Shown here piece after piece: positions 49,957 to 64,000 of a stretch of 64,000 bases of DNA (the first letter of the stretch is position 1; each line of letters starts with the position of its first letter). The notes under the pieces are model-generated. The model worked only from the letters and a program-made list of their open reading frames with translations. It ran no database searches and had not been told where the DNA came from. Source of the DNA: Faecalibacterium langellae. Its GTDB lineage: Bacteria > Bacillota > Clostridia > Oscillospirales > Ruminococcaceae. The position numbers and the translations under genes are program-made. The DNA lies in assembly GCF_002549775.1 (NCBI RefSeq), contig NZ_NMTR01000001.1, positions 1 through 64,000 of the forward strand. Direction: 5' to 3'.

Positions 49957-50796
49957 TCAGTCTGCGGTGATGTACTTGTCCACGATGGACTGCAGGGTGC
50001 CGTCTGCCTTCAGCTCTTCCAGAGCAGCGTTGACGGCCTCCACCAGAGCGGTGTTGTCCTTATTCATGCCGATGGCGTAATCCTCCTCGGCATAGCTGGT
50101 CTCCAGCACCTTCAGGCCGGGGTTGGCAGCCACATACTCCTTGGCGGGAGCGTTGTCGATGACCACGGCGTCCACCTGACCATTGTTCAGGGCCTGCACA
50201 GCGGTCAGACCGTTGTCGTAAGCCACCACAGAGTCCTCGCCGAAGTCGTCGGTGCAGTAGATGTAGCCGGTGGTGCCGCGTTGGGTACCGATCTTCTTGC
50301 CTGCCAGATCATCGGGAGATGCGATGTCGGAGCCTTCCGGCACGATGATGGACTGGATGCCGGTGGCGTAGCTGTCGGAGAATGCCATCACGGCCTTGCG
50401 CTCATCGGTGACGGTGATGCCGGCCATGGCGATGTCGGCCTTGCCCTGCTGCACGCTCAGCAGTGCGGCGTCAAACTCCATGTCGTCCACCTGCAGCTCC
50501 AGACCCAGCTTCTCGGCAATGGCCTTGGCGGTGTCCACATCGATGCCCTCGATGTCGCCGCCGTCGGTGGTCATCTCATACGGAGGGAAGGTGGCGTTGG
50601 TCGCCATGGTCAGCTTGCCAGCCATCACAGTAGTCAGCTCACCGGCGGCAGCGCTGGTGGAAGCAGCCTCAGAAGAAGCAGAGCTTGCCACAGAGGAAGC
50701 CACGCTGGAAGAAGAACCACCGCAGGCGGTCAGAGCCAGAGCGGCAACGGACAGACCGGCAGCAGCCAGGAAGCTGCGACGAGAGATCTTTTTCAT
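49957..50796 (-). CDS. amino-acid-binding lipoprotein of the ABC transporter
   Basis: The 279-residue lipoprotein starts MKKISRRSFLAAAG and has the lipobox LTACG, a Ser/Ala-rich linker and a family 3 binding domain (TNATFPPYEM, GIDVDTAKAIAEKLG). The paired Arg resembles a Tat motif. The ligand is probably a polar amino acid such as glutamine or cystine, from family membership only. It is the first gene of the operon, with GAGGAG before the ATG. Confidence 0.92.
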   Translation of the reverse strand: MKKISRRSFLAAAGLSVAALALTACGGSSSSVASSVASSASSEAASTSAAAGELTTVMAGKLTMATNATFPPYEMTTDGGDIEGIDVDTAKAIAEKLGLELQVDDMEFDAALLSVQQGKADIAMAGITVTDERKAVMAFSDSYATGIQSIIVPEGSDIASPDDLAGKKIGTQRGTTGYIYCTDDFGEDSVVAYDNGLTAVQALNNGQVDAVVIDNAPAKEYVAANPGLKVLETSYAEEDYAIGMNKDNTALVEAVNAALEELKADGTLQSIVDKYITAD

Positions 50797-50878
50797 ATTC
50801 AAACACTCCTCAAATGTACTGTATAATTTTCGGCCCGTCGGGACGATGCGCTTCATCAGACCTCCGGCGAACGGATTT

Positions 50879-50907
50879 AGTATAGATTGTACAAAATGAA
50901 AAGTCAA
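50879..50907 (-). promoter_or_regulatory. promoter of the amino-acid transporter operon
   Basis: On the minus strand TTGACT (50,902-50,907) and TATACT (50,879-50,884) are 17 bases apart, about 80 bases upstream of the binding-protein gene. Confidence 0.75.
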
Positions 50908-51029
50908 TACTTGTGCAAAAAATCCGACGATTTGAAACCGAATTGAAAACAATTATGCAGCAGAATGGTTGAATAGAATGTATATATGCAGGACGGCGGG
51001 GAATGTTCTCTTTTTGCCGCCCAAAAGAA

Positions 51030-51145
51030 AACCAGAAAGGACGGCTGTGCCCGGAGGGCATGAAAGCCCCAGTGGGGCTTTCAAGCAGGCGAGCGGTCTG
51101 CGATAGCAGATGGAAGGACTTTGTCCTGACAAGCGTCGGGGGCGC
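51030..51145 (+). repeat. hairpin-chain dispersed repeat, copy B
   Basis: The stretch is a chain of small hairpins: TGCCC/GGGCA, AAAGCCCC/GGGGCTTT (51,063-51,081), TCTGC/GCAGA and AGGAC/GTCCT. It has the same order as copy A near 402-525 (reversed), with compensating stem changes. The region 50,908-51,222 holds no gene. Confidence 0.6.
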
Positions 51146-51222
51146 TCCAAACGCGAAATTAAAAATAATTTTTCCGCTGATATTGTCAGAGCGAAGCGGA
51201 GACAATTCTAAATCATCCGGTG

Positions 51223-51798
51223 TTACAAATACCGTGCGATCTCCTCTTTGCTGCGCTTCGGCACGCAGTAATCCCGGTTCTCATCCAGATAATACTTCAC
51301 GCCGGTCTCGGCGGTCAGCGGCACGATGTGCGATTTGTGGCTCGGATAGCCGAAGGCCACCATGTAGACCAGCTGCTGCGGCGCTTCAATGCCCAGCAGT
51401 TCGGTCAGCACCGGCTTGTTGATGGCCCCCATGATGCAGCTGCCCACGCCCTTGTCCCAGGCGGCAAGGGTCATGTTGGCCAGCGCGATGCCGATGTCGG
51501 TGGCCGGGTCGCCGGGGATGGCAGTATTCTTCACCACGGCAACAAACAAGGTGGGCAGCTCGTCGGCCTTTGGGGTGCCCTGCTCCGGCGGCAGGTAGGC
51601 GGCCCACTTCACCAGTGGTTGCACCCTGGCCACGTCTGTGGGCTGGTTCACCACCACCAGCCGCACGGCCTGCCGATTGGCCCCGCTGGAAGAAAGCCGC
51701 ACGGCTTCAATGATGTCGTCCACCACATCCTGCGGCACAGGCTTCTGCTCGAACCGGCGGTAGGTGCGGCGGGTGGCGAGGGTATCCATGACAGACAT
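51223..51798 (-). CDS. nitroreductase-family FMN protein
   Basis: The 191-residue protein has the N-terminal TRRTYRRFEQKPVP motif and the SSSGANRQ and DIGIALANMTLAAWDKGVGSC segments of FMN-dependent nitroreductases. AAGGAG precedes the ATG at 51,798. The natural substrate is unknown. Bases 51,799-52,033 upstream show no further gene. Confidence 0.9.
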   Translation of the reverse strand: MSVMDTLATRRTYRRFEQKPVPQDVVDDIIEAVRLSSSGANRQAVRLVVVNQPTDVARVQPLVKWAAYLPPEQGTPKADELPTLFVAVVKNTAIPGDPATDIGIALANMTLAAWDKGVGSCIMGAINKPVLTELLGIEAPQQLVYMVAFGYPSHKSHIVPLTAETGVKYYLDENRDYCVPKRSKEEIARYL

Positions 51799-52033
51799 GT
51801 AAAACAACTCCTTATATAGTATGGAATGGGGTCCTGCTTTCCTGCAGTATACCAGATGCGGCCGTGCCCCGCAAGCACCGCGCCGGGAAGCGGGCAGAGA
51901 ACGGCGGGAAAAGAGCGGCCGGAACAGCGGCGCTGGCCCGCGCCGGACGGTGAAAGAAAAACACCTCTGAGATGAACGAAAAGCAACACACTTGTGCTGA
52001 AAAGTTGCGATGAATTAACTTCATGTGAAAAAC

Positions 52034-52062
52034 TTGACAAGCAGCGCAAGACGTGATATCTT
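52034..52062 (+). promoter_or_regulatory. promoter of the lipoprotein gene
   Basis: TTGACA (52,034-52,039) and TATCTT (52,057-52,062) are 17 bases apart. Confidence 0.6.
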
Positions 52063-52151
52063 ACGGTTTGCCGAGACAAACTGGCGGGAATATTCCGGGC
52101 TGGTTTGCTTTGCTATGGGAAGAAAGTGCAAAACGATCAGGAGGAAAAACG

Positions 52152-52967
52152 ATGTCTAAAATTTCTCGTCGCAACTTTATGAAGTGTGCCGGTGCTGCAG
52201 CGCTGGCTGTGGCTGCTGCGGGCGCACTGTCCGGCTGCGGCCCGATGCTGGATGTGGATGTCTATTTTTATGCGAATGGCGCAAAGCTGGAGCTGACCGG
52301 CAAGGGCAAGGTCCAGACCGGCGCAGACGAAATGGACACAGCGACCATTGAACTGCCCGCTGAGTACAAAGCAGCATATGAGATCGCGGACGCAAAGGCC
52401 AAGGTCATTCGTGAGAACGGCAAGCGCTATGCGAACGTGAACCTGGTTGCAAAAGAGGTGACCTATCAGGTCTATTATCAGCTGGACGGCACCACAGTGC
52501 TGTCCGGTGAAGTCACGGCATCCGCTGTGAACCCCACCATCACGGTTAATGATCTGGACCAGGATGAGCTGAAGGCGCTGGCCAAGCTGTTCTACGAGAC
52601 CACCGGTGATGTTCAGCTGAGCAACAACACCGTGATTGTTCCGGTGAAGAAGGTCATGGGCGAGGTCGAAGTGAAGTATACCAAGTATTCCAGCTTCTGG
52701 TCTGAGAATCCTGAAAAGGATAGTCCTGTTGACAATGGAAGCTATGATGAAAAGGTTCCGCTTTGGAAGGGGCAGAATACGATTTCCACTAGCGAGATGA
52801 AGAACCTGAACAGTGCGTGCACGATGGGCTACAGATATGTAATGCAGCGCATTGGAACGACGCCCAATGCTGGCAGTAAAAACTTTGAGGAAACAAATAT
52901 CTTTGCTGTTGATTGGAGCAATCCGATTGTCAAAGTTTACCTGAGCGATACGAAGAACTTCTACTAA
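52152..52967 (+). CDS. hypothetical lipoprotein
   Basis: The 271-residue protein starts MSKISRRNFMKCAGAAAL with a lipobox ALSGCG and a paired-Arg start. The mature part has no recognised domain and is rich in beta-type, Tyr/Lys/Thr segments. CAGGAGG precedes the ATG. It is a single gene with its own promoter and terminator. The function is unknown. Confidence 0.8.
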   Translation: MSKISRRNFMKCAGAAALAVAAAGALSGCGPMLDVDVYFYANGAKLELTGKGKVQTGADEMDTATIELPAEYKAAYEIADAKAKVIRENGKRYANVNLVAKEVTYQVYYQLDGTTVLSGEVTASAVNPTITVNDLDQDELKALAKLFYETTGDVQLSNNTVIVPVKKVMGEVEVKYTKYSSFWSENPEKDSPVDNGSYDEKVPLWKGQNTISTSEMKNLNSACTMGYRYVMQRIGTTPNAGSKNFEETNIFAVDWSNPIVKVYLSDTKNFY

Positions 52968-52995
52968 GAAGCGGAAAATTTCAAGAATACCTAAT

Positions 52996-53033
52996 AAAGC
53001 GGCTGTCCCTCACATGGGGCAGCCGCTTTTGCG
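52996..53033 (+). terminator. terminator of the lipoprotein gene
   Basis: A 10-bp stem (52,996-53,005 with 53,020-53,029) ends in a short T run. Confidence 0.8.
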
Positions 53034-53045
53034 CAGAAAAAGAAC

Positions 53046-53504
53046 TTACATCTTATTCTGGTGCCTTTTCGGGATGGGCACGCTCAGCACCAGCGAGATG
53101 CCCACGGCCAGCGCCACCGCAACCTTAAAGGTACTGATGCCGTGGGAGAGGGCCAGCGCGTTGTTGCCCTGGATGAAATAGTAGGCGCAGTAGTAGATGC
53201 CCGCGCCGGGCACCAGCGGGAAGATGCCGGAGAGCAAAAACACCGTCACCGGCATTTTGAGCACGATGGCAAACACCCGGGTGAGCAGGGTGAGCGGGAT
53301 GACCGCCAGCAGGGAAGCGGCGGCGGCGTCCATGCCCAGCAGGACGGCCAGCTCGTAGACGAACCAGCCCACGGCCCCCACCAGCCCGCAGAAGGGCAGG
53401 CTCTTGCGCGGGCAGCCGAACAGGATGGCAAAGCTCAGGGTGCCCGCCCCGGCAATGAAGAACTGGGCGGCCAGCTCCCCGATCTGTGTACTGGTAAGCA
53501 TCAT
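53046..53504 (-). CDS. ThrE-type exporter, C-terminal half subunit (DUF3815-like)
   Basis: The 152-residue protein has about four membrane segments and matches the second half of threonine/serine exporters (FGCPRKSLPFCGLVGAVGWFVYEL, GIFPLVPGAGIYY). The ATG overlaps the stop of the DUF1212-type gene (ATGA), so the two halves are coupled. The pair probably exports small amino acids or related metabolites. Confidence 0.85.
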   Translation of the reverse strand: MMLTSTQIGELAAQFFIAGAGTLSFAILFGCPRKSLPFCGLVGAVGWFVYELAVLLGMDAAAASLLAVIPLTLLTRVFAIVLKMPVTVFLLSGIFPLVPGAGIYYCAYYFIQGNNALALSHGISTFKVAVALAVGISLVLSVPIPKRHQNKM

Positions 53505-54292
53505 GCGACCACCACCCCCGTAAAGAATGTATAAAGGCTCAGCACAAGGCCGGTGCCGATGGCGATGCTGGCTGCAATGAGCAGCGCGTCGATCATGCGG
53601 ATGGTGCCGGAAAGATAGTCGCCGTGCACGAAGTCCCGGATGCCCATGGTGAAGGCGATGCCCGGCGTCAGGATCATCAGCGCGCCGATGATGGCGTGGC
53701 TGGCGGGCGTGCCCAGCAGATTGCAGCCCAGGATGCACACCAGTGTGATGAGGGCTGCGCAGCTGATCTTGCGGAAGCCGCCCGGCAGCTCGTGCCGCTC
53801 GCACAGCAGCAGATACCAGCTGGCGGCCAGGCCCGCCGCCGCCGCCGCCAGCGCGCTGCGCAGCGTGCCGCCGAAGATGAGCGCAAAGCAGAACGCGCCG
53901 CACAGGCCGCTCACCAGCTGCACCCAGTCCTTGGGGAAAGGGATGCGCCGGGCCAGCACCAGGCGGCTCTCGGCTTCGTCCAGCGTCATATTGCCCTCGG
54001 CGATCTCGCGGGAGAGGGCGTTCACCGCCGCCACCCGGCCCAGATGGGTGGTGCGGGTGGGCACATTGCGCACCTCGCTGATCTCGGCGGTGCCTGCGCT
54101 GGCAAAAATGCCGTTGGTCAGCACATAAATGTGGAACTCCCGCAAATGGAAACTGCGTGCCATGATCTCCATGGTCTGCTCCACCCGGAACACCTCGGCA
54201 CCGTTTTCCAGCAGCGTCTGCCCCGCCGCCATGATGAAATCCATGATGCGGCGGCGCAGTTCCTCGTCGGGGTAGATTTCTCTGCCGTTCAT
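53501..54292 (-). CDS. ThrE-type exporter, N-terminal half subunit (DUF1212)
   Basis: The 263-residue protein has a soluble N-terminus with the family pattern GAEVFRVEQTMEIMARSF and about five membrane segments (MILTPGIAFTMGIRD). AAGGAGGTG precedes the ATG. It works with the 53,046 protein. Its mRNA carries a long structured leader. Confidence 0.88.
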   Translation of the reverse strand: MNGREIYPDEELRRRIMDFIMAAGQTLLENGAEVFRVEQTMEIMARSFHLREFHIYVLTNGIFASAGTAEISEVRNVPTRTTHLGRVAAVNALSREIAEGNMTLDEAESRLVLARRIPFPKDWVQLVSGLCGAFCFALIFGGTLRSALAAAAAGLAASWYLLLCERHELPGGFRKISCAALITLVCILGCNLLGTPASHAIIGALMILTPGIAFTMGIRDFVHGDYLSGTIRMIDALLIAASIAIGTGLVLSLYTFFTGVVVA

Positions 54293-54488
54293 TGCCGCAC
54301 CTCCTTACAATAAAGTTGATTTCACCAGCGTGTCGGTAATTTCTCCTCGGACACGAAACGGGCCATTCCATCGCCCGCCCTATTGCCCTTCGGGCAACAG
54401 GGTCCCACCCCAGCGGACGGTCCTCGGAGAAACTCCCGGCCCACTGGTCGGATACGTTTATTCTATCATGTCCGCGGCTGGCGCACAA
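54293..54488 (-). promoter_or_regulatory. promoter and structured leader of the ThrE-type operon
   Basis: On the minus strand TTGTGC (54,483-54,488) and TAGAAT (54,460-54,465) are 17 bases apart. The approximately 160-base leader folds into a rod: TTTCTCC with GGAGAAA, a GA/GA internal loop, GGAC with GTCC, then an apical 11-bp hairpin around GTTGCCC-GAA-GGGCAAT. No known riboswitch class was recognised. Confidence 0.45.
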
Positions 54489-54505
54489 GAGGAAAATGAT
54501 CCTGC

Positions 54506-54534
54506 TTGACAAAAGCGGAAAAAATCACTATACT
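54506..54534 (+). promoter_or_regulatory. promoter of the antitoxin-like RNA
   Basis: TTGACA (54,506-54,511) and TATACT (54,529-54,534) are 17 bases apart. The transcript would start near 54,541 and end at a terminator about 90 bases on. Confidence 0.75.
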
Positions 54535-54540
54535 ACAAGC

Positions 54541-54632
54541 AGAAGGGGCGCTGACTGCATTGGGCCAGCTTTCCATCCTGCTAGTCAAAAGATTGACCGC
54601 TCGGCTGGTAACTGGGGCGGTCAATCTTTTTT
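54541..54632 (+). ncRNA. candidate type I antitoxin RNA
   Basis: This short transcript runs from a strong promoter to a terminator (stem 54,587-54,600 with 54,617-54,630, then T). It converges on the small hydrophobic peptide gene and overlaps its 3' end. No good reading frame is present. Confidence 0.6.
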
Positions 54633-54758
54633 GTTATCATCGTCTTTCTTCTGGGAAAACTTTGCCATGACCTCAACGGTCAGACGGATCACATCCACGA
54701 TCAGGCTCAACAGAGTGAGAACGAACGTGAGCAGTGCGAGAGTCTCCAAAAGAGTCAT
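54621..54758 (-). CDS. small hydrophobic peptide, candidate type I toxin
   Basis: The 45-residue peptide has one membrane segment (LLTFVLTLLSLIVDVI, about residues 9-24) and a charged, Lys/Asp-rich tail (KKDDDNKKD), the build of holin-like type I toxins. The ATG has GGGAGGG 8 bases upstream, and a promoter lies at 54,914-54,942. The stop codon falls in the shared terminator stem with the convergent RNA. It was found by reading the sequence; no family name is certain. Confidence 0.6.
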   Translation of the reverse strand: MTLLETLALLTFVLTLLSLIVDVIRLTVEVMAKFSQKKDDDNKKD

Positions 54759-54913
54759 CCGACATCCCTCCCTTCGCCTTCAAGGCTCCGGGCAGGGTAC
54801 TTCCAAAAAAAGTTTCCTCCCGGAACCTCTGCTTCGTTCTATGTAATAATAGAAGAATCAGCGATGCGGGATGGAAAGCATGACCACCGATATGCAATCA
54901 GCGCCTTATCACC

Positions 54914-54942
54914 AGTGTAACACAAAGCTTGACGTAAGACAA
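54914..54942 (-). promoter_or_regulatory. promoter of the toxin-like gene
   Basis: On the minus strand TTGTCT (54,937-54,942) and TACACT (54,914-54,919) are 17 bases apart. The leader of about 150 bases contains segments similar to the 5' end of the convergent RNA. Confidence 0.55.
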
Positions 54943-54983
54943 GAAAAACCGCAATTCCCTACTAAAAAACTTCGTTTTAGGTG

Positions 54984-55012
54984 TTGACAAATCCCGTCGA
55001 TTGGATTATTAT
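54984..55012 (+). promoter_or_regulatory. promoter of the T-box/met operon
   Basis: TTGACA (54,984-54,989) and TATTAT (55,007-55,012) are 17 bases apart, just ahead of the T-box leader. Confidence 0.8.
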
Positions 55013-55029
55013 AAATGCAATATCACAAA

Positions 55030-55329
55030 AATGGCTGTGATGAGGAGAGTAAGCTTTCGCATTGATCCTTACCAGAGAGCCCGGGCGGTGGAAAAGGGCA
55101 GGAAACAGGAAGCTGAAAATGGCCTCGGAGCTGTGCGGGCGAGGTGCATGAGCGCTAAGTTCGCAACGGGATGCGCCCCGTTACAGCGTCCGGCTGTAAG
55201 CAGCAAAGCTGCCGCAGCATCGAGGCTGTGCCCGTGAGGGTGCGGTAAACCAAGGTGGTACCACGGAAGTATGTTCTGCTCCCGTCCTTGTCTGAGCGTT
55301 GGCTCAAAGGCAGGGACGGGAGCTTTTTT
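55030..55329 (+). promoter_or_regulatory. methionine T-box leader with terminator
   Basis: The T-box sequence AAGGTGGTACCACGG lies at 55,252-55,266. A stem I region with GAGGAGAGTAAGC lies upstream, and the terminator stem pairs 55,278-55,290 with 55,311-55,323, followed by T. The likely specifier is ATG in GAAAATGGCCTC (about 55,118). Uncharged tRNA-Met would switch on metQNI. Confidence 0.9.
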
Positions 55330-55418
55330 CATGCATCCGTTCCAAGGCCCTTGCACGGAACTGTGCCGTGCGGGCCGCTGTACATTTGTAATAAGCAAAA
55401 TAGAGAGGGAACAAAACT

Positions 55419-56330
55419 ATGATTACTCGTCGCGATTTTCTGAAAGTTACCGGTGTGGCTGCTGCAGCCGCTGCCCTGACCGCATGCGGCGGATCTTCTT
55501 CCACCGCATCTTCCGGCACTGCTTCTTCTGCAGCTGCTTCCACCGCAGCCAAGCTGGATAAGATCAAGGTGGCTGTGCCCAACGACACCACCAACGAGGC
55601 CCGCGCCCTGACCCTGCTGGAGAAGAACGGCTTCTTCAAGCTGAAGGCTGACGCCGGCCTGACCGCCACCGCAAAGGACATCGAGGAAAACCCCCTGAAC
55701 GTCACCGTCGATGAGGTCGAGGCTGCTCAGGTGCCCAACGTCCTGCAGGACGAGGACTACGCCGTCATCAACTCCAACTACGCCATCTCCGCCGGCCTGG
55801 ACCCCATCAACGATGCTCTGGCCATGGAGGACGGCACCTCTGCTTACGTCAACGTTCTGGTCTGCAAGGAAGGCAACGAGGAGGAGCCCAAGATCAAGGC
55901 TCTGGTGGCCGCTCTGCAGAGCCAGCAGGTGAAGGACTTCATGGAGGAAAACTACAAGGGTGCTGTGGTCTCCGTTGTCGAGAACCCCACCGACGGCTAC
56001 GACTCCTCCATTGATTACGACGCACTGAACGGCGAGACCGTCAGCTGCGCTGCTACCCCGGCTCCCCACTGCGAGGTGCTGGAGATCTGCAAGGACATTC
56101 TGGCTGCCAAGGGCATCACCCTGGACATCCAGGAGTTCGACGACTACATCCAGCCCAACAACGTGGTTGAGGACGGCCAGATCGACACCAACTACTTCCA
56201 GCATCAGCCGTATCTGGACGACTTCAATGCAGAGCACGGCACCCACCTGGTGACCGTTGCCGGCATCCACGTGGAGCCCATGGGCATCTACGGCGGCAAG
56301 CAGGACAGCCTGGCACCGATCGAGGGCTAA
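55419..56330 (+). CDS. metQ: methionine-binding lipoprotein MetQ, circularly permuted
   Basis: The 303-residue lipoprotein (signal TRRDFLKVTG, lipobox LTACG with Cys23) has all NlpA/MetQ segments but in swapped order. Residues 50-187 (VAVPNDTTNEARAL to YKGAVVSVV) match the second half of normal MetQ; residues 206-303 (PAPHCEVLEICKDIL, FDDYIQPNNVV, FQHQPYLDDF, VEPMGIYGGKQDSL) match the first half. A linker (188-205) joins the old C- and N-termini. Context (T-box, metN, metI) supports methionine uptake. Confidence 0.92.
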   Translation: MITRRDFLKVTGVAAAAAALTACGGSSSTASSGTASSAAASTAAKLDKIKVAVPNDTTNEARALTLLEKNGFFKLKADAGLTATAKDIEENPLNVTVDEVEAAQVPNVLQDEDYAVINSNYAISAGLDPINDALAMEDGTSAYVNVLVCKEGNEEEPKIKALVAALQSQQVKDFMEENYKGAVVSVVENPTDGYDSSIDYDALNGETVSCAATPAPHCEVLEICKDILAAKGITLDIQEFDDYIQPNNVVEDGQIDTNYFQHQPYLDDFNAEHGTHLVTVAGIHVEPMGIYGGKQDSLAPIEG

Positions 56331-56351
56331 GCCTAAAAAGGAGCAATTTCT

Positions 56352-57365
56352 GTGATTGAGATCAAACACCTTTCCAAGACCTTCCAGATGAAGGACGGCG
56401 CGGTGAACGCGCTGCACGACATCAACCTCACCATCCCGGATGGTTCCATCTACGGCATCATCGGCATGTCCGGTGCAGGCAAATCCACGCTGGTGCGCTG
56501 CATCAACCTGTTGGAGCGCCCAACCGAGGGCAGCGTCGTCATCGATGGCACCGCCATGGAGACCCTCAGCGCAGCCCAGCTGCGTGAGCGCCGCCGCGAC
56601 ATCACCATGATCTTCCAGCAGTTCAACCTGCTCATGCAGCGCAGCTGCCTGAAGAACATCTGCTTCCCCATGGAACTGGCCGGTGTGAAGAAGGCGGATG
56701 CCGAAAAGCGCGCCAAGGAGCTGCTGGACGTGGTGGGCCTGCCCGATAAGGCCAACGCCTACCCGGCCCAGCTTTCCGGCGGCCAGAAGCAGCGCATCGC
56801 CATCGCCCGCGCGCTGGCAACGGACCCGAAGGTCCTGCTGTGCGACGAGGCCACCAGTGCGCTGGACCCCAACACCACCCATGCCATCCTGACCCTGATC
56901 AAGGACATCAACAAGAAGCTGGGTATCACGGTGGTGGTCATCACCCACCAGATGAGCGTCGTGGAGGAGATCTGCGATCAGGTTGCCATTCTGGACGGCG
57001 GTGTGGTCGTGGAACAGGGCGCGGTCGCAGAAATTTTCTCGAACCCCAAGACGGCGGCGGCAAAGCGTCTGGTGGCCCCCAACGGCGGCAGCGCTGCCCG
57101 CGATCTTTCCAGCTTTGCCCCGGACGACCATGTGGTGCGCGTCACCTTCAACGGTTCGTCCACTGCAAAGCCGCTGGTGGCAAGCCTTGCGGCTGAAAAA
57201 GGCATTCTGGTGTCGGTGCTCAGTGCCGACACCCGTGATCTGAACGGCCAGTGCTACGGCTCCATGCTGCTCAAGCTGCCTGCCGATGTGGAGCAGGCAA
57301 AGCAGGCGGCCGCCTACATGCGCGGCCAGCCCGGTGTGACGGTGGAGGAGGTGACCGGCGAATGA
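56352..57365 (+). CDS. metN: methionine ABC transporter ATPase MetN
   Basis: The 337-residue protein has GMSGAGKST, LSGGQKQR, LLCDEATSALD and a C-terminal NIL domain (about 265-335), which in MetN binds methionine and inhibits transport. GTG at 56,352 has GGAG upstream. The stop overlaps metI (ATGA). Confidence 0.95.
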   Translation: MIEIKHLSKTFQMKDGAVNALHDINLTIPDGSIYGIIGMSGAGKSTLVRCINLLERPTEGSVVIDGTAMETLSAAQLRERRRDITMIFQQFNLLMQRSCLKNICFPMELAGVKKADAEKRAKELLDVVGLPDKANAYPAQLSGGQKQRIAIARALATDPKVLLCDEATSALDPNTTHAILTLIKDINKKLGITVVVITHQMSVVEEICDQVAILDGGVVVEQGAVAEIFSNPKTAAAKRLVAPNGGSAARDLSSFAPDDHVVRVTFNGSSTAKPLVASLAAEKGILVSVLSADTRDLNGQCYGSMLLKLPADVEQAKQAAAYMRGQPGVTVEEVTGE

Positions 57366-58018
57366 GCATTGCAGATTACGGCTTTGCCATCTGGGAGACC
57401 TTCTATGTGACGGCGCTCTCCACCGCCTTTGCGCTGGTGCTGGGCCTGCCGCTGGGTGTGCTGCTGGTGGCCGGTGACAAGGACGGCGTTCTGCCGCTGC
57501 CTTCCTGGCTGATGCACATCCTGAACATCGTCATCAACATTCTGCGCAGCGTGCCCTTCCTGATCCTGATGATCTGCGTCTTCCCGCTCACCCGTGCCAT
57601 CGTGGGCACCACGGTGGGCACCAAGGCCACCATCGTTCCGCTGGTGGTGGCGGCCTTCCCCTTCGTGGCACGTCTGGTGGAGACCAGCCTGCGCGAGCTG
57701 GACGAGGGCGTGGTGGAAGCTGCCCAGAGCATGGGCGCTACCCCCTTCCAGATCATCACCAAGGTGATGATCCCCGAGTGCCTGCCCGGCCTGATCTCCA
57801 GCATGACCACCGCCCTGACCACCATTCTGGGCTACTCGGCCATGTCCGGCGTCATTGGCGGCGGCGGCCTGGGCAAAATTGCGTTGTCCTACGGCTACTA
57901 CCGCTACCAGACCGATATCATGATCGTCTGCGTGGTGCTGCTGGTGCTCATGGTGCAGGTGTTCCAGAGCGTGGGCACCTGGTGGGCCAACAAGAGTGAT
58001 AAGAGACTGCGGAAGTAA
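57362..58018 (+). CDS. metI: methionine ABC transporter permease MetI
   Basis: The 218-residue permease has five membrane segments and the EAA-like loop (GVVEAAQSMGATPFQIITKVMIPE). The start ATG overlaps the metN stop; the frame upstream is antisense-like noise within metN. It pairs with MetN. Confidence 0.95.
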   Translation: MSIADYGFAIWETFYVTALSTAFALVLGLPLGVLLVAGDKDGVLPLPSWLMHILNIVINILRSVPFLILMICVFPLTRAIVGTTVGTKATIVPLVVAAFPFVARLVETSLRELDEGVVEAAQSMGATPFQIITKVMIPECLPGLISSMTTALTTILGYSAMSGVIGGGGLGKIALSYGYYRYQTDIMIVCVVLLVLMVQVFQSVGTWWANKSDKRLRK

Positions 58019-58057
58019 CCCCTAGCCCCCGGTCGGGAAGCAAAATTTAACGTTTCA

Positions 58058-58098
58058 ATTCCCCGCCGGAGGCATCTGCACTCCTGCGGGGAATTGTG
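58058..58098 (+). promoter_or_regulatory. hairpin between metI and metY
   Basis: An 11-bp perfect stem (58,058-58,068 with 58,088-58,098) encloses a smaller GGAG/CTCC pairing. No T run follows, so it may be an mRNA stability or partial-termination element. Confidence 0.5.
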
Positions 58099-58132
58099 CT
58101 ATATGGACAAACCCAGCAAAGGAGTATGTAGT

Positions 58133-59407
58133 ATGAATCGTGATACCATCTGCGTGCAGGGCGGTTACACCCCCGGCAACGGCGAACCCCGCCAGATCCC
58201 CATCGTGCAGTCCACCACCTTCAAGTATGCCACCAGCGAGGATATGGGCAAGCTGTTCGACCTGGAAGCCGACGGCTACTTCTATTCCCGCCTGCAGAAC
58301 CCCACCTGCGACCTGGTGGCGAAAAAGATTTGCGAGCTGGAAGGCGGCACTGCCGCCATGCTCACCTCCAGCGGTCAGGCCGCAAACTTCTTCGCGCTGT
58401 TCAACCTCTGCGAAGCAGGCGACCACATCGTGGCATCCAGCACCATCTACGGCGGCACCTTCAACCTCATCTCCGTCACCATGAAGAAGATGGGCATTGA
58501 CGCCACCTTCGTGGACCCGCTGTGCACCGAGGAAGAACTGAACGCCGCCTTCCGGCCCAACACCAAGGTCGTGTTCGGCGAGACCATCGCAAACCCGGCC
58601 CTCACCGTGCTGGACATTGAAAAGTTTGCCACGGCCGCCCACGCCCACGGCGTGCCGCTCATCGTGGACAACACCTTCCCCACGCCGGTCAACTGCCGCC
58701 CCTTTGAGTGGGGCGCGGACATCGTCACCCACTCCACCACCAAGTACATGGACGGCCACGGCGCTGTGCTGGGCGGAGCCATCGTGGACAGTGGCAAGTT
58801 CGACTGGATGGCCCACGCTGAAAAGTTCCCCGGCCTGTGCACCCCGGACGACAGCTACCACGGCATCACCTACGCCGAGCGCTTCGGCAAAGAGGGAGCT
58901 TTCATCACCAAGGCTACTGCCCAGCTCATGCGCGACTTCGGCTCCATGCAGTCCCCCATGAACGCTTACATGCTGAACCTCGGCCTCGAAAGCCTGCATG
59001 TCCGGATGCAGCGCCACTGCGAAAACGGCATGGCCGTGGCAAAGTTCCTGGAAGCACACCCCAAGGTGGCTTACGTCAACTACTGCGGTCTGGAAAACAG
59101 CCCCTACCACGCACTGGCCGAAAAGTACCTGCCGAACGGCAGCTGCGGCGTGGTGAGCTTTGGTCTGGCCGGCGGCCGCGAAGCTGCCAGCACTTTCATG
59201 AAGGAGCTGAAGCTGGCTGCCATCGAGACCCATGTGGCCGATGCCCGCACCTGCTGCCTGAACCCCGCATCCAGCACCCACCGCCAGATGAACGACGAGC
59301 AGCTGAAAGCCGCCGGTGTGCCCGCAGAGCTGGTGCGCATGAGCTGCGGCCTGGAAAGCAGCGAAGACCTCATCGCCGATATCGCGCAGGCGCTGGATAA
59401 GATCTAA
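58133..59407 (+). CDS. metY: O-acetylhomoserine sulfhydrylase
   Basis: The 424-residue PLP enzyme makes homocysteine from O-acetylhomoserine and sulfide. It has [25 protein letters not shown] and the PLP-lysine motif [18 protein letters not shown] precedes the ATG at 58,133. Length fits MetY (about 425) rather than the shorter cystathionine enzymes. It works with the downstream MetA. Confidence 0.93.
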
Positions 59408-59433
59408 AAACTTCCCCAAAGGAGTACGACACT

Positions 59434-60366
59434 ATGCCGCTGATCATCCCCAAGACCCTGCCCGCTTACGATGCCCTCTACAACGAAAATGTCTTCGTCA
59501 TGCACCGTGAGCGCGCCCTTGCCCAGCACATCCGCCCGCTGGAAATTCTCATCCTCAACCTGATGCCCACCAAGATCACCACCGAGACCCAGATCGCCCG
59601 CCTGCTGGCCAATACCCCCATTCAGGTGCACATGACCCTGATGCAGACGGCCAGCCACGCAGCCACCCATGTCTCGGCGGCACACCTCGAGTCCTTCTAT
59701 AAGACCTTCGACGAGGTGAAGAATAACCGCTACGACGGCATGATCATCACGGGGGCACCCATCGAGACCATGGACTTCGAGCAGGTGGACTACTGGGACG
59801 AGCTGTGCGAGATCATGGATTTCAGCGAGACGAATGTCTACTCCACCCTCCATGTGTGCTGGGGCGCGCAGGCGGGCCTGTACTACCACTACGGCGTGCA
59901 CAAACAGCTGCTGCCGGAGAAGATGTTCGGCGTGTTCGAGCACCGGGTCACCCGCCCGGCAAACCCGCTGGTGCGCGGCTTCGACGAGGTGTTCTATGCG
60001 CCCCACAGCCGCCATACCGGCATCAGCCGCGAGGATGTGGACAACTGTAAGGCACTGCGCATCCTTGCCGAGAGTGACGTGGCCGGCCCCTTCCTCATGA
60101 GCACCGAGAACGGACGGCAAATTTTCGTCACCGGCCACCCGGAGTACGACAAGTACACGTTGGATTCCGAGTACCGCCGCGACGTGGACAAGGGCCTGCC
60201 CATCCATGTGCCGGTGAACTACTACCCGGACGACGACCCCGCGAAGCCGCCGCTGTTCCGCTGGCGTGCCCACGCCCACCTGCTGTATGAGAACTGGCTG
60301 AACTACTACGTCTACCAGAACACCCCCTACGATCTGGGCGAAATCCAGCGCGTGAAGCACGAATAA
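59434..60366 (+). CDS. metA: homoserine O-acetyltransferase (MetA family)
   Basis: The 310-residue protein has the nucleophile Cys142 in HVCWGAQAG, the TGHPEYD motif, and Glu111 in GAPIETMDF. Known work on MetA shows that Glu at 111 favours acetyl-CoA over succinyl-CoA, which agrees with an O-acetylhomoserine-using MetY next door. AAAGGAG precedes the ATG. A terminator follows at 60,371-60,415. Confidence 0.95.
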
Positions 60367-60370
60367 ATGC

Positions 60371-60415
60371 ACAAAAACCGGTATTGCGTCAAAATTGCGC
60401 GATACCGGTTTTTAT
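60371..60415 (+). terminator. terminator of the met genes
   Basis: A 12-bp stem around AAAACCGGTAT and its complement is followed by a T run. The right arm lies between the -35 and -10 boxes of the next promoter. Confidence 0.8.
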
Positions 60416-60423
60416 GCTATACT
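60395..60423 (+). promoter_or_regulatory. promoter of the Fst-like toxin gene
   Basis: TTGCGC (60,395-60,400) and TATACT (60,418-60,423) are 17 bases apart, overlapping the met terminator. Confidence 0.6.
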
Positions 60424-60475
60424 GTTCCTGCGGCCCTTCTCCATTCCCCTAACCGCGGAAAGGAGGTGGTAACCA

Positions 60476-60580
60476 ATGGAAGTCTTCGTCTCATTTATAC
60501 AGACTGTCGGAGCAGAGGTAGTTGCCTACTATCTGTGCAAGTGGCTTGACAGCCTGTTCTTCAAGGGCAGCAAGCACTAA
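60476..60580 (+). CDS. 34-residue Fst/Ldr-like hydrophobic peptide, candidate type I toxin
   Basis: The peptide (MEVFVSFIQTVGAEVVAYYL, then CKWLDSLFF and a basic end) is one membrane helix with a Trp-Leu-Asp turn, as in Fst-family toxins. A very strong AAAGGAGGTGG site precedes the ATG. The gene ends 6 bases before a terminator shared with a convergent small RNA. Direct repeats around its start and beyond the terminator match the Fst/RNAII layout. Confidence 0.7.
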   Translation: MEVFVSFIQTVGAEVVAYYLCKWLDSLFFKGSKH

Positions 60581-60586
60581 CCCAAG

Positions 60587-60626
60587 AAGCCCCCCGGTAC
60601 TGACACTACCGGGGGGCTTTTGGTTT
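60587..60626. terminator. bidirectional terminator of the toxin/antitoxin pair
   Basis: A 13-bp perfect stem (60,587-60,599 with 60,607-60,619) has a 7-base loop and a T-rich tail on the plus strand. Confidence 0.85.
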
Positions 60627-60667
60627 TTTCGTGGTAACCACGGAACAGGCCTTCATCTCATTGCCTA
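60587..60667 (-). ncRNA. candidate antitoxin RNA (RNAII-like)
   Basis: A minus-strand promoter (TTGACT at 60,695-60,700, TATACT at 60,673-60,678, 16 bases apart) would start an RNA near 60,667 ending at the shared terminator. It carries complements of GTGGTAACCA and CTTCRTCTCATT, which occur at the toxin ribosome-binding site and early codons. Confidence 0.65.
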
Positions 60668-60672
60668 TCTTT

Positions 60673-60700
60673 AGTATATGCAGTTTTAAGCAAAAGTCAA
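60673..60700 (-). promoter_or_regulatory. promoter of the candidate antitoxin RNA
   Basis: On the minus strand TTGACT and TATACT are spaced by 16 bases, between the flavin reductase 3' end and the toxin locus. Confidence 0.7.
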
Positions 60701-60715
60701 GCGATGAAATGTAAA

Positions 60716-61300
60716 TTATTTTTTACGCCTTACCGGCTTTTTCTTCCGCACACTGTAGCCAAAGGTGCCCAGCTTTTTGCCCAGGGCCAGATACTCGCCG
60801 TGGCTGTAGACGATGAGCTTGGCTTTATCAAGGCAGAGCTTGCCGGTCTCATCCAGCAGGCTTTCGTCCACATCGCAGGCCACAACTTCGGCCAGGAACA
60901 GATCATGGCTGCCCAGCGGGATCACCTGAGTCACTTTGCACTCGAGGTTCACCGGGCTTTCTTCCAGCACCGGGCAGTCGGTCAGCACGCTGCCGGGGGC
61001 GGCATGCAGGCCGCAGGCGGCGAACTTATCCACGTCGCGGCCGCTTTTCACGCCGCACCAGTCGATGGAGTGCACCAGCGCTTCGGTGGGCAGGTTGATG
61101 GCAAACTGCCCGCTCTCCTGGATAAGGTGGTGGCTGTAGCGCTCCGGCCGCACGCTGATGCTCACCATGCTGGGCTGGGTGCAGATGGTGCCCGTCCAGC
61201 CGATGGTGATGAGGTTGGGCTTATCCAGCCCGCCGCAGGAGACCAGCACCGGCGGTTCCGGGTTCAGCAGGGTGCTGCCCCGCCAGCTCTGTTTGCTCAT
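60716..61300 (-). CDS. flavin reductase-like FMN-binding split-barrel protein
   Basis: The 194-residue protein has the family pattern GGLDKPNLITIGWTGTICTQPSMVSISVRPERYS and a basic C-terminus (KKKPVRRKK). AAAGGAAG precedes the ATG. The start overlaps the glycosyltransferase stop (ATGA), so they form an operon. The substrate is unknown. Confidence 0.88.
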   Translation of the reverse strand: MSKQSWRGSTLLNPEPPVLVSCGGLDKPNLITIGWTGTICTQPSMVSISVRPERYSHHLIQESGQFAINLPTEALVHSIDWCGVKSGRDVDKFAACGLHAAPGSVLTDCPVLEESPVNLECKVTQVIPLGSHDLFLAEVVACDVDESLLDETGKLCLDKAKLIVYSHGEYLALGKKLGTFGYSVRKKKPVRRKK

Positions 61301-62277
61301 CCGTGATACTTCCTTTCATAGGGGGCCCAGGTGCGCTCGGAGATGATGTAGCGCGGGCGGGCTTTCGTTTCCATATAAATTTTGCCGATATACTCACCGA
61401 TGACGCCCAGGCACACCAGCTGTACGCCACCCACAAAGCAGACGATGCAGATGGTGGAGGCCCAGCCTGCCACCACACTGCCTAGGATGGCATCAATGAT
61501 GGCCCAGATCACGCCGATGAAGCTGATCAGGCTCACCACGATGCCCGCGCCCGTGATGATGCGGATGGGCTTGTTGGAAAGGCTGGTGATGCCGTCAAAG
61601 GCCAGTGCCAGCATCTTGCTCAGGGGGTAGTGGCTCTCACCGGCCAGACGCTCGTGGCGCTCGTAGGTGACAACTTCGCTCTTAAAGCCCACCAGCGGCA
61701 CCATGCCGCGCAGGAAGATGTTCACCTCTTTGTAGTCCGCAAAGCTCTCCAGCACCCGGGTGCTGATGAGCCGGTAGTCGGCGTGGTTGAACACGATGTC
61801 CGCGCCCAGAGCGTTCATCACGTGATAGAAACCCTCGGCGGTGAACCGCTTGAAGAAGGTGTCGGTATCCCGGCGGCTGCGCACGCCGTACACCACCTCG
61901 GCACCGGCTAGGTACTTTTTCACCATCTCATCCATGGCGTTGATGTCGTCCTGGCCGTCGCAGTCGATGGAGATGGTGATATCACAGGTGCCGCTGTGCA
62001 GCGCTTCCATCAGGCCCGCCAGTACGGCGTTCTGGTGGCCGCGGTTGCGGCTCTGCGAGATGCCGATGAAGTGCTCATCCTGCGCGGCAAAGCCCTGAAT
62101 GAGCTCCCAGGTCTTGTCGCGGGAGCCGTCGTTTACGAACAGCACCCGGCTTTTCTCGCTCACAAGGCCCTGTGCGGCCAGGCTGTTGATCTTTTCCAGA
62201 AACATGGGTGCCGTGATGGGCAGCACCTGCTCCTCGTTGTAGCAGGGGATCACGATCCAGAGGATAGGTTTTGACAT
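61297..62277 (-). CDS. family 2 glycosyltransferase (GtrB/dolichol-phosphate mannosyltransferase-like)
   Basis: The 326-residue protein has a GT-A domain with the CYNEEQVLP start, NDGSRDKTW, and SIDCDGQDD (metal-binding DxD type), and two C-terminal membrane segments. Relatives transfer a sugar to a polyprenyl phosphate at the membrane. ATG at 62,277 has AAGGAG upstream. Confidence 0.92.
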   Translation of the reverse strand: MSKPILWIVIPCYNEEQVLPITAPMFLEKINSLAAQGLVSEKSRVLFVNDGSRDKTWELIQGFAAQDEHFIGISQSRNRGHQNAVLAGLMEALHSGTCDITISIDCDGQDDINAMDEMVKKYLAGAEVVYGVRSRRDTDTFFKRFTAEGFYHVMNALGADIVFNHADYRLISTRVLESFADYKEVNIFLRGMVPLVGFKSEVVTYERHERLAGESHYPLSKMLALAFDGITSLSNKPIRIITGAGIVVSLISFIGVIWAIIDAILGSVVAGWASTICIVCFVGGVQLVCLGVIGEYIGKIYMETKARPRYIISERTWAPYERKYHG

Positions 62278-62346
62278 GATAAAAAAGCTCCTTATAATAA
62301 ACAGCAAAAAGGATGCCGTTGAAGTTATGGCCCTTCCCGTGAAAAA

Positions 62347-62382
62347 GAGTTTTAGAAAAATCCGCAGATTTTTCTAAAACTC
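62347..62382. terminator. perfect inverted repeat between crp-like and glycosyltransferase genes
   Basis: Two 16-base arms (62,347-62,362 and 62,367-62,382) with a 4-base loop lie downstream of the Crp-like gene. The stem is AT-rich, so terminator strength is uncertain. Confidence 0.6.
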
Positions 62383-62451
62383 AAATATAAAAATAAAATT
62401 TCCGATGAGAATGGCCAAAGCGCACGCGGCGGCCATTTTAAATGGTCCGGC

Positions 62452-63132
62452 TCACTGCACCATTTGCTTCAAAGTCTCCGGTTCCAGAAGCTTGAAGCTG
62501 CTCTTGTAAGTGTCCAGCAGGCCGTCCCGCTGCATCTGGCTCAGCTCACGGCTGAGGGCGCTGCGGTCGCAGTTCAGGTAATCCGCCAGCTGGATGCGGG
62601 AGAACGGGATGCTGAAGGTCAGGCTGCCCGCCCGCTCGGCTTCGCTGAGCAGGTAAGCGCACACCTTGGCCCGCAGGCTTTTCAGCACCAGCAGGTCGAT
62701 GCGGCGGGAAAGCGAAAAATACTTGTCGCTGATGGTGCGCACCAGGTTCTGCAGTGCGCGCTGGTGCGCCGGGCTGCCGTCCGAAAGCAGCAGCCGCTCG
62801 TAGGGGATGAGCAGCACTTCGCAGGGTGCGGCGGCCAGCACCGTCACCGGGCTGGCAAGGCTGGACCCGCCCAGCACGTCGCCGAACACGCCGCCCGGCT
62901 CCATGTGGGTGATGGGGATGCGCGCCCCGCCCGGGGCCGGGCGGTAGGCTTCCAGCATGCCGGTGAGCACCACGCCCACCCGGCGGTTGGGTTCCCCGGC
63001 CAGCACGAGGGCCTCGCCCTTGCCGTAACTGCGCACCACAGCACCCAGCTGGGCCAGCAGCACCTGCAGCTGGTCGGTGGGGATGCCGGTGAACAAAGAG
63101 GTGGATTGTAACAGCGGAAGATAGTTTTTCAT
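62452..63132 (-). CDS. Crp/Fnr-family transcriptional regulator
   Basis: The 226-residue protein has an N-terminal cyclic-nucleotide-binding-like barrel (GVVLTGMLEAYRP, PGGVFGDVLGG) and a C-terminal helix-turn-helix (SRIQLADYLNCDRSALSRELSQMQ). No Fnr-type Cys cluster is visible, so an iron-sulfur sensor is unlikely. ATG at 63,132 is preferred to a longer frame from 63,177. It is divergent from a solute-binding protein gene that it may control. Confidence 0.9.
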   Translation of the reverse strand: MKNYLPLLQSTSLFTGIPTDQLQVLLAQLGAVVRSYGKGEALVLAGEPNRRVGVVLTGMLEAYRPAPGGARIPITHMEPGGVFGDVLGGSSLASPVTVLAAAPCEVLLIPYERLLLSDGSPAHQRALQNLVRTISDKYFSLSRRIDLLVLKSLRAKVCAYLLSEAERAGSLTFSIPFSRIQLADYLNCDRSALSRELSQMQRDGLLDTYKSSFKLLEPETLKQMVQ

Positions 63133-63210
63133 CACAAATCCGTGGGAAAGAGACAGGCTCCCACAGCCCTCCTGCAATTCTGTTGCACACGCAACGGTAT
63201 TTTTACCCCT

Positions 63211-63239
63211 ATTATAGTAAACTTAGACGCGCAAAGCAA
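63211..63239 (-). promoter_or_regulatory. promoter of the Crp/Fnr-like gene
   Basis: On the minus strand TTGCTT (63,234-63,239) and TATAAT (63,211-63,216) are 17 bases apart. Confidence 0.65.
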
Positions 63240-63356
63240 ATGATTTTGCAAATTTGCTTTGTAAAATTTTGAAAAAGACCGACCCATTCCGCAAACGATG
63301 CGGCCCCGGCGGGGGAAAGGGCGCGGTCTTGCGCGGAAAGAGGAAGGTATCCACAC

Positions 63357-64000
63357 ATGAAAAAGATCGTATCCCTGCTGCTGGCGCTGACCATGGCACT
63401 GAGCCTGGCTGCCTGCGGCGGTGCAGCATCCGAAGCTGCTTCCAGCGAGGCTGTCTCCGAGGCAGCATCCGAAGCTGCTTCCAGTGAAGAAGCAAAAGAA
63501 CTGTCCACCACTGATGCCCTGCGCATTGCCGGGCTGAAGGGCCCCACCACCATGGGCCTTGTCAACCTGCTGAGTATGGAAGAAGACGGCACCGCCGCCA
63601 TGGACTATGACCTGCAGCTCTACGGCGCGGCCGACGAGATCGTGCCTCTGCTGATGAAGGGCGAGCTGGACATGGCTGCCATCCCGGCAAACCTGGCCGC
63701 GACCCTCTACCAGAAGACGAACGGCGGCATTCAGGCCGTGGCCGTCAACACGCTGGGCGTGCTGTATGTGGTGGAAAAAGGCGGCGACACCGTCCAGTCC
63801 ATGGCTGACCTGAAGGGCCGCACCATCCTGTCCACCGGCAAGGGCACCACGCCGGAGTACGTCCTACGCTATCTGCTGAATGCCAACGGCATCGACCCGG
63901 ACAAGGACGTGACCATTGAATACTACAGCGAGGCCACCGAGGTCACCGCCCAGATGGCCAACACCGACAACGCCATTGCCGTGCTGCCCCAGCCCTATGT
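63357..64000 (+). CDS. ABC transporter solute-binding lipoprotein, NMT1/SsuA-like (partial)
   Basis: The gene starts at 63,357 (AGGAAGG upstream) and runs off the window. It encodes a lipoprotein signal (LSLAACGG), a Ser/Ala/Glu-rich linker built of EAAS-type repeats, and a family segment (RIAGLKGPTTMGLVNLL, LKGRTILSTGKGTTPEYVLRYLL) typical of NMT1/SsuA-type binding proteins. A permease and ATPase would be expected beyond the window. The ligand is unknown. Confidence 0.88.
   Translation, partial: MKKIVSLLLALTMALSLAACGGAASEAASSEAVSEAASEAASSEEAKELSTTDALRIAGLKGPTTMGLVNLLSMEEDGTAAMDYDLQLYGAADEIVPLLMKGELDMAAIPANLAATLYQKTNGGIQAVAVNTLGVLYVVEKGGDTVQSMADLKGRTILSTGKGTTPEYVLRYLLNANGIDPDKDVTIEYYSEATEVTAQMANTDNAIAVLPQPY

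Follow-up and report, generated by a model that had tools for sequence, protein, structure and literature searches.

A circularly permuted MetQ lipoprotein in Faecalibacterium and other lineages, probably born by tandem gene duplication and fusion

Natural circular permutations are usually visible only as end products. In proteins of the MetQ/NlpA family (PF03180) the order is collinear, from N-lobe to C-lobe. In NmMetQ, methionine is contacted by R156, N213 and N238 on one lobe and by Y81, F98, H100 and Y103 on the other, according to the excerpts of the source used here (PMC6739813). Naturally permuted solute-binding proteins have a precedent in another family and fold cluster: TpMglB-2 (Tp0684), the Type Ic glucose-binding lipoprotein of Treponema pallidum, is described in excerpts of its report as a natural circular permutation with its N-terminal strands moved to the C-terminus, tethered, and with relatives in Gram-positive gut bacteria (PMC4990184). 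The same excerpts state that it binds its sugar and changes shape, which supports the view that permutation is tolerated, that its permuted part is poorly conserved, and that acquisition of this part from another gene is left open by the authors. As for MetQ/NlpA itself, titles and abstract starts in the open-licence PMC literature yielded no permuted member, which is weak negative evidence. A permuted relationship of OpuAC and ProX was considered as well and dropped, as passages of two papers searched for it contain no such statement.

We analyzed a locus in the first 64,000 nucleotides of a Faecalibacterium langellae contig (this whole stretch is hereafter the window). The forward-strand frame at 55419-56330 is open over 303 codons, and the region around it is organized as follows.

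55028..55292, forward strand: T-box leader 5' of the metQNI operon (Rfam RF00230, 84.9 bits, E 4.3e-19, full model length)
55419..55487, forward strand: signal peptide with the twin-arginine motif TRRDFLK (Pfam TAT_signal 29.2 bits, cut-off 22.7)
55485-55487, within the preceding feature, forward strand: codon of the lipobox Cys23, read from the sequence
55488..55559, forward strand: Ser/Ala-rich spacer from the lipidated Cys to the C-lobe, from the sequence
55560..55973, forward strand: MetQ C-lobe (Pfam, profile 97-234), now first, with ligand positions R62, N118/N120 and N145
55974..56027, forward strand: linker from the old C-terminus to the old N-terminus, of which the part NPTDGYDSSIDYDALN matches a spacer in the genus g55
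56028..56321, forward strand: MetQ N-lobe, now last (profile 3-94 at 56046-56321), with ligand positions Y243, F260, H262 and Y265
56352..57365, forward strand: metN, ABC ATPase with NIL domain (Pfam ABC_tran and NIL; best NCBIfam ABC_MetN, 371.5 bits, cut-off 499.7)
57362..58018, forward strand: metI, permease (Pfam BPD_transp_1; NCBIfam MetI 209.2 bits, cut-off 212), its start chosen as the ATG that overlaps the metN stop
58133..59407, forward strand: O-acetylhomoserine sulfhydrylase family enzyme of methionine synthesis (NCBIfam TIGR01326, 557.6 bits, cut-off 495.1)
59434..60366, forward strand: metA, homoserine O-acetyltransferase (NCBIfam NF047918, 488.7 bits, cut-off 460.5)

The original prediction, made from the letters alone, was that this gene encodes a MetQ with its C-lobe first and its N-lobe last, whose two ends join as inside normal family members; a continuous family match only after rotation was named as what would support it. 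The unrotated protein belongs to PF03180 (254.2 bits, gathering score 27) and matches Pfam Lipoprotein_9 in two stretches in inverted order, with residues 48-185 on profile 97-234 and the N-lobe behind them, and so lacks the collinear order of the family. When the sequence was rotated at residue 204, a single stretch (7-241) covered profile 3-234 with 268.0 bits, and a control rotation at residue 120 again gave two stretches (246.3 bits). The predicted order, joinable ends, and signal peptide and lipobox ahead of the new order were all borne out, and the linker, expected at about 18 residues, measures 17 between the lobe models. All 22 distinct PDB sequences listed in a query-to-PDB comparison match the protein in two stretches, so none of these 22 has its lobe order.

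The AF2 model of the window MetQ (pLDDT 88.9, pTM 0.81) had MetQ-family chains as its five best Foldseek matches, with MetQ chains aligned over 82-153 columns in an alignment that follows chain order. Non-MetQ proteins aligned nearly end to end at an rmsd of about 5.6-9.5, which is expected and no proof. The NCBIfam cut-offs were missed (TIGR00363, 165.4 against 228.85; PRK11063, 164.6 against 374); the permutation was dropped as the reason, because two of three canonical MetQ controls also fell below the TIGR00363 cut-off and all three below that of PRK11063, so the miss is not from the permutation alone. With a Tat-type signal, and TatC encoded in the same genome, the protein may cross the membrane in a folded state. 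An upstream frame (52053-52967) has another twin-arginine, lipobox-like start (SRRNFMK ... LSGCG).

The gene adjoins metN and metI, the partners of MetQ/NlpA proteins. The score of the T-box leader was obtained with permissive settings on a short stretch and lies below the RF00230 gathering threshold of 93; at gathering thresholds Rfam found nothing within 50000-64000 of the window, and listed no leader 5' of metQ in 11 further permuted loci. In our reading of the alignment, AUG appears at the expected specifier codon position, and a Faecalibacterium relative (L122) also has a T-box (83.2 bits) with the AUG kept. T-box leaders were also seen about 2 kb behind permuted metQ in Merdimonas (L137, 8637-8884) and Lachnoclostridium (L141, 8645-8889).

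Whether the permutation is general in Faecalibacterium had been left as an open question, and an assembly rearrangement had been named as a possible refutation. Of 31 genomes of the genus searched, 30 gave a match, and for 29 of these a script recovered the C-then-N order within a single open frame; finished chromosomes (L126 and L145) carry the gene as well. We give next to no weight to an assembly or annotation artefact, which is refuted for the genus by the recurrence of the same order in many separate genomes, cultured and finished ones among them. The permuted gene is the sole match in 29 of the 30 matching genomes; only the window's own genome has a second one, a canonical, divergent MetQ (C11:179905-180588). 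The dN/dS of the window metQ against seven Faecalibacterium relatives is 0.10-0.17, indicating purifying selection. In the remaining genome, G028, the permuted metQ is split over two frames (L032, C1:783608-784371), as a pseudogene or through a sequence error.

The permutation is much wider than the genus. Counting from the matches listed, in genome samples that overlap, the C-lobe precedes the N-lobe in at least 23 of 297 genomes of the family (129 with a match; frames checked by script), and one-piece matches to the permuted protein occur in at least 32 of 394 genomes of the order (122 with any match), at least 18 of 391 of the class (171) and at least 3 of 398 of the phylum (217). Faecalibacterium, Lachnoclostridium An138/An131, Merdimonas, Gemmiger, Fournierella and Slackia are among the best 80 of 538 confirmed stretches in a collection of named genomes. 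In the Slackia family, at least 17 of 109 genomes (72 with a match) have permuted copies among the matches listed, most others being canonical. One permuted MetQ of the Slackia type (L198) lies in a MAG labelled Neisseriaceae, for which a mislabelled bin or transfer seems likelier than a true host.

Fetched frames were scored with two lobe models by script, giving 185 with C-N order, 162 with N-C, 2 with N-C-N and 1 fragment. Some frames are one gene fetched twice, and the distinct ones number 114 in clade A, 2 in A2, 19 in B, 18 in C, 4 in E and 156 canonical. Clade A holds the window MetQ and many Clostridia. Clade B (Gemmiger/Fournierella/Subdoligranulum) adjoins the canonical L266 and L208, and clade C (Slackia and kin, Actinomycetota) adjoins the canonical L319. 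Clade E is a divergent permuted group (L372, L373, L374, L375), in which L374, L209 and L359 are one gene and the linker is some 30-50 residues long. A2 consists of two almost identical genes, L168 and L169, taken from separate MAGs of uncultured Clostridia, with the order N-lobe 48-95, C-lobe, clade-A linker, N-lobe 1-49.

Trees were built on lobes rearranged to the canonical order. Before the 106-row set was made, L001, L081, L203 and L032 were dropped, together with near-identical rows and any row having under 170 filled columns; the 102-row tree leaves out the four clade E rows, and the 67-row set a further 35 (17 canonical outliers or long rows, 13 A, 1 A2 and 4 C). L204 is one of these 17: it adjoined C in the first tree, moved away once more canonical rows were added, and was dropped as a long branch. 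In the 67-row tree the grouping of C with L319 is firm (100/99), and C without L319 is weak (58/76). L168 stands beside clade A with weak support (92/48), A being alone in 93% of 200 bootstrap trees, and falls inside clade A in a 166-row quick tree. Single-lobe trees recover B as one clade and A and C not (2 changes each).

These trees bear on the possibility of one ancient permutation, with the canonical order regained by re-permutation in L319, L266 and L208. The hinge cut is identical across all permuted clades, as this explanation would have it, and AU tests on the 67-row set, with clade E left out, reject neither A+C (38.2 log units, p 0.125) nor A+B (51.8 log units, p 0.056). Against it, uniting A, A2, B and C as one clade costs 84.9 log units (p-AU 0.010) and B+C costs 66.7 (p 0.005), both rejected, with p-values that are optimistic because the groups were named after earlier trees had been seen. 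The linkers also differ, that of A being unlike those of B and C. Gene order fits a split of A from B and C: metQ-metN-metI was found in 137 of 140 A frames (3 unscored), as in the canonical g55 kin of A, and metN-metI-metQ in 19 of 21 B, 16 of 18 C and 5 of 6 E frames (the rest unscored), as in the scored canonical kin of B and C (L262-L266, L319, L322 and L328; L208 is unscored). Among canonical frames, metN-metI-metQ accounts for 125 of 162 and metQ-metN-metI for 19, with 18 unscored; the latter order is not confined to g55, as 12 of the 19 come from others, mostly the Slackia family. The NIL domain is present in the MetN of the window and of L169, and none was found in the two B/C MetNs scanned (L170 and L171). 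A single permutation event thus appears unlikely to us, and the evidence supports multiple origins, numbering three in the best tree and two as the floor, since A+C and A+B are not rejected.

The methionine-contact positions were traced through the rearrangement. By motif and spacing, without superposition, NmMetQ Y81, F98, H100, Y103, R156, N213 and N238 correspond to Y243, F260, H262, Y265, R62, N120 and N145 of the window MetQ, with spacings (17/19/22 and 25) identical to those in NmMetQ and an R-N distance of 58 against 57. All seven are kept in 139 of 139 A, 2 of 2 A2, 21 of 21 B and 18 of 18 C frames, counts that omit the broken L032 and include 114, 2, 19 and 18 distinct frames, respectively. 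Among the six frames of clade E, which include one gene three times, five have T at the N213 position and three have F at the Y103 position; these ligand positions are changed, perhaps for another substrate.

Given its conserved contact positions and its place at the head of a metQ-metN-metI operon, the window MetQ is most likely an ordinary methionine-binding lipoprotein. The permutation is probably neutral for methionine binding. That the permuted protein lost methionine binding and took another role is very improbable in our view. Such a loss could be entertained because the window's genome has its second, canonical MetQ; it sits poorly with ligand positions that are invariant in A, B and C, an operon with metN and metI next to other methionine genes and behind a Met-type T-box, the low dN/dS, and the status of the permuted gene as the sole match in most genomes of the genus.

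The linker points to how the permutation arose. The original prediction called it new; it does join the old termini, and in clade A it is not new, having a counterpart in the spacer at the N-terminus of canonical MetQ. In g55, a genus of the same family, the linker of clade A (window NPTDGYDSSIDYDALN) turns up again in canonical MetQ, where it lies between the lipobox and the N-lobe, for example as TGDGFDSSVDYEALK in L217. This A-type spacer was found in 14 of 27 g55 loci scanned, the other 13 being shorter and of the type DLAGTT. A profile of the 16 linker residues, without any lobe residue, scored 24-32 bits in 19 spacer entries, all canonical g55 (some genomes twice), and below 3 bits in all the rest of the 234 spacer or linker segments, including the B, C and E linkers; shuffled sequences, 4680 in all, reached 5.5 bits at most. 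In g55 the matches end 0-1 residues from the N-lobe, the same abutment as in clade A. The simplest reading is a fused tandem pair whose second copy contributed its mature N-terminus as the A linker. The reverse direction, with canonical g55 genes derived from the fusion, would be the alternative.

A2 adds a second cut site. Its genes keep the canonical-type hinge DGAKIGVPND, and L169 carries a lipoprotein signal, with intact metN and metI behind it. The A2 model (AF2, pLDDT 86.5, pTM 0.82) matches MetQ chains over about 163-204 columns in Foldseek. No further A2 case appeared among the matches listed for 98 genomes of its family. One fusion trimmed in two ways would account for both A and A2; alternatively, A2 may be a re-permuted A protein.

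A model of the starting point of such a fusion may be seen in two genomes of the phylum, at L205 (864-2555, reverse strand) and L206 (828-2585, reverse strand), where two canonical metQ lie in tandem in one frame, separated by just one TAA; neither pair is closely related to A. None of the loci examined contained an open MetQ-MetQ fusion, including long frames of 518-586 aa, which were tried as candidates and rejected: L202 is an SBP_bac_3-MetQ protein, L205 and L206 are stop-separated, and the others contain one MetQ. L202 (1449-3188, reverse strand, genome G770) is a 580-residue lipoprotein frame with SBP_bac_3 ahead of a canonical MetQ, and L203 (g64) seems, by eye, to be built alike, with a MetQ part that continues into other sequence.

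The lack of a whole tandem fusion in these loci leaves some room for fission followed by fusion, in which separate N-lobe and C-lobe genes were joined in swapped order with no tandem duplication, and which would give the same lobe order. We consider it quite unlikely, given that the mature spacer of a MetQ with its N-lobe first is present in the linker, that the A2 N-lobe is cut in two with the canonical-type hinge kept, and that the scored frames, from searches that favour whole matches, include no free half-lobe gene except the broken one of G028.

Under duplication and fusion, an ancestral metQ would have duplicated in tandem and the copies fused, so that the C-terminus of the first copy ran into the mature N-terminal spacer of the second. 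Loss of the outer halves and re-attachment of a signal peptide would have left C1-spacer-N2; trimmed a second way, that fusion would have given N1b-C1-spacer-N2a (L168/L169). At least one other lineage, and probably two or more (B, C and perhaps E), would also have been permuted at this hinge. By analogy with canonical MetQ, the lipid-anchored protein, exported by Tat or Sec, would close on L-Met between its lobes and hand it to MetNI, in an operon that a Met T-box probably switches in Faecalibacterium. With the permutation, the lipid tether would no longer sit on the N-lobe but at the hinge, where the C-lobe begins.

Overall, we propose with a probability of roughly 0.8 that the window MetQ is a working methionine-binding lipoprotein of MetNI, with an ordinary MetQ fold opened at the first lobe-to-lobe crossing and its ends joined by a linker, that it was born by tandem duplication and fusion, and that permutation at this hinge also arose in other lineages. 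We lean slightly towards a broader reading, in which natural permutation of MetQ is a recurring event: the same crossing would have been cut independently, through tandem duplication and fusion, in no fewer than three lineages (A, B, C and probably E), with the clade A fusion trimmed in two ways and its fossil linker shared by both permutants. If this is true, the tether moved to the hinge may be the gain.

Several origins are likely, the mechanism is unusually legible, and the function is probably ordinary. Canonical kin, permutants cut at two sites with one linker, and a canonical lineage with that linker as its spacer stand side by side, and this coexistence makes the duplication-fusion route readable from sequence and testable. 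The separate clades amount to repeated natural experiments on lobe order, on one covalent hinge strand and on the tether site in a Venus-flytrap protein.

With canonical MetQ/NlpA proteins (NmMetQ 6DZX/6OJA, TpN32 1XS5 and R. gnavus 4IB2), the window MetQ has in common the sequence family, the lobes, the ligand positions, the lipoprotein signal and the metN/metI partners, and it differs from them in its inverted lobes, its extra linker and a lipid tether on the C-lobe side at the hinge. The SBP_bac_3-MetQ lipoprotein L202 resembles its proposed history in that a head-to-tail fusion at the MetQ N-terminus is tolerated, but places an amino-acid-binding domain before a canonical MetQ without permutation. 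TpMglB-2, as far as the excerpts of its report describe it, is a Type I/cluster B sugar binder with another cut position, whereas the window MetQ belongs to Lipoprotein_9 rather than Type Ic, both of its lobes are clearly homologous to those of its canonical relatives, and its linker can be traced.
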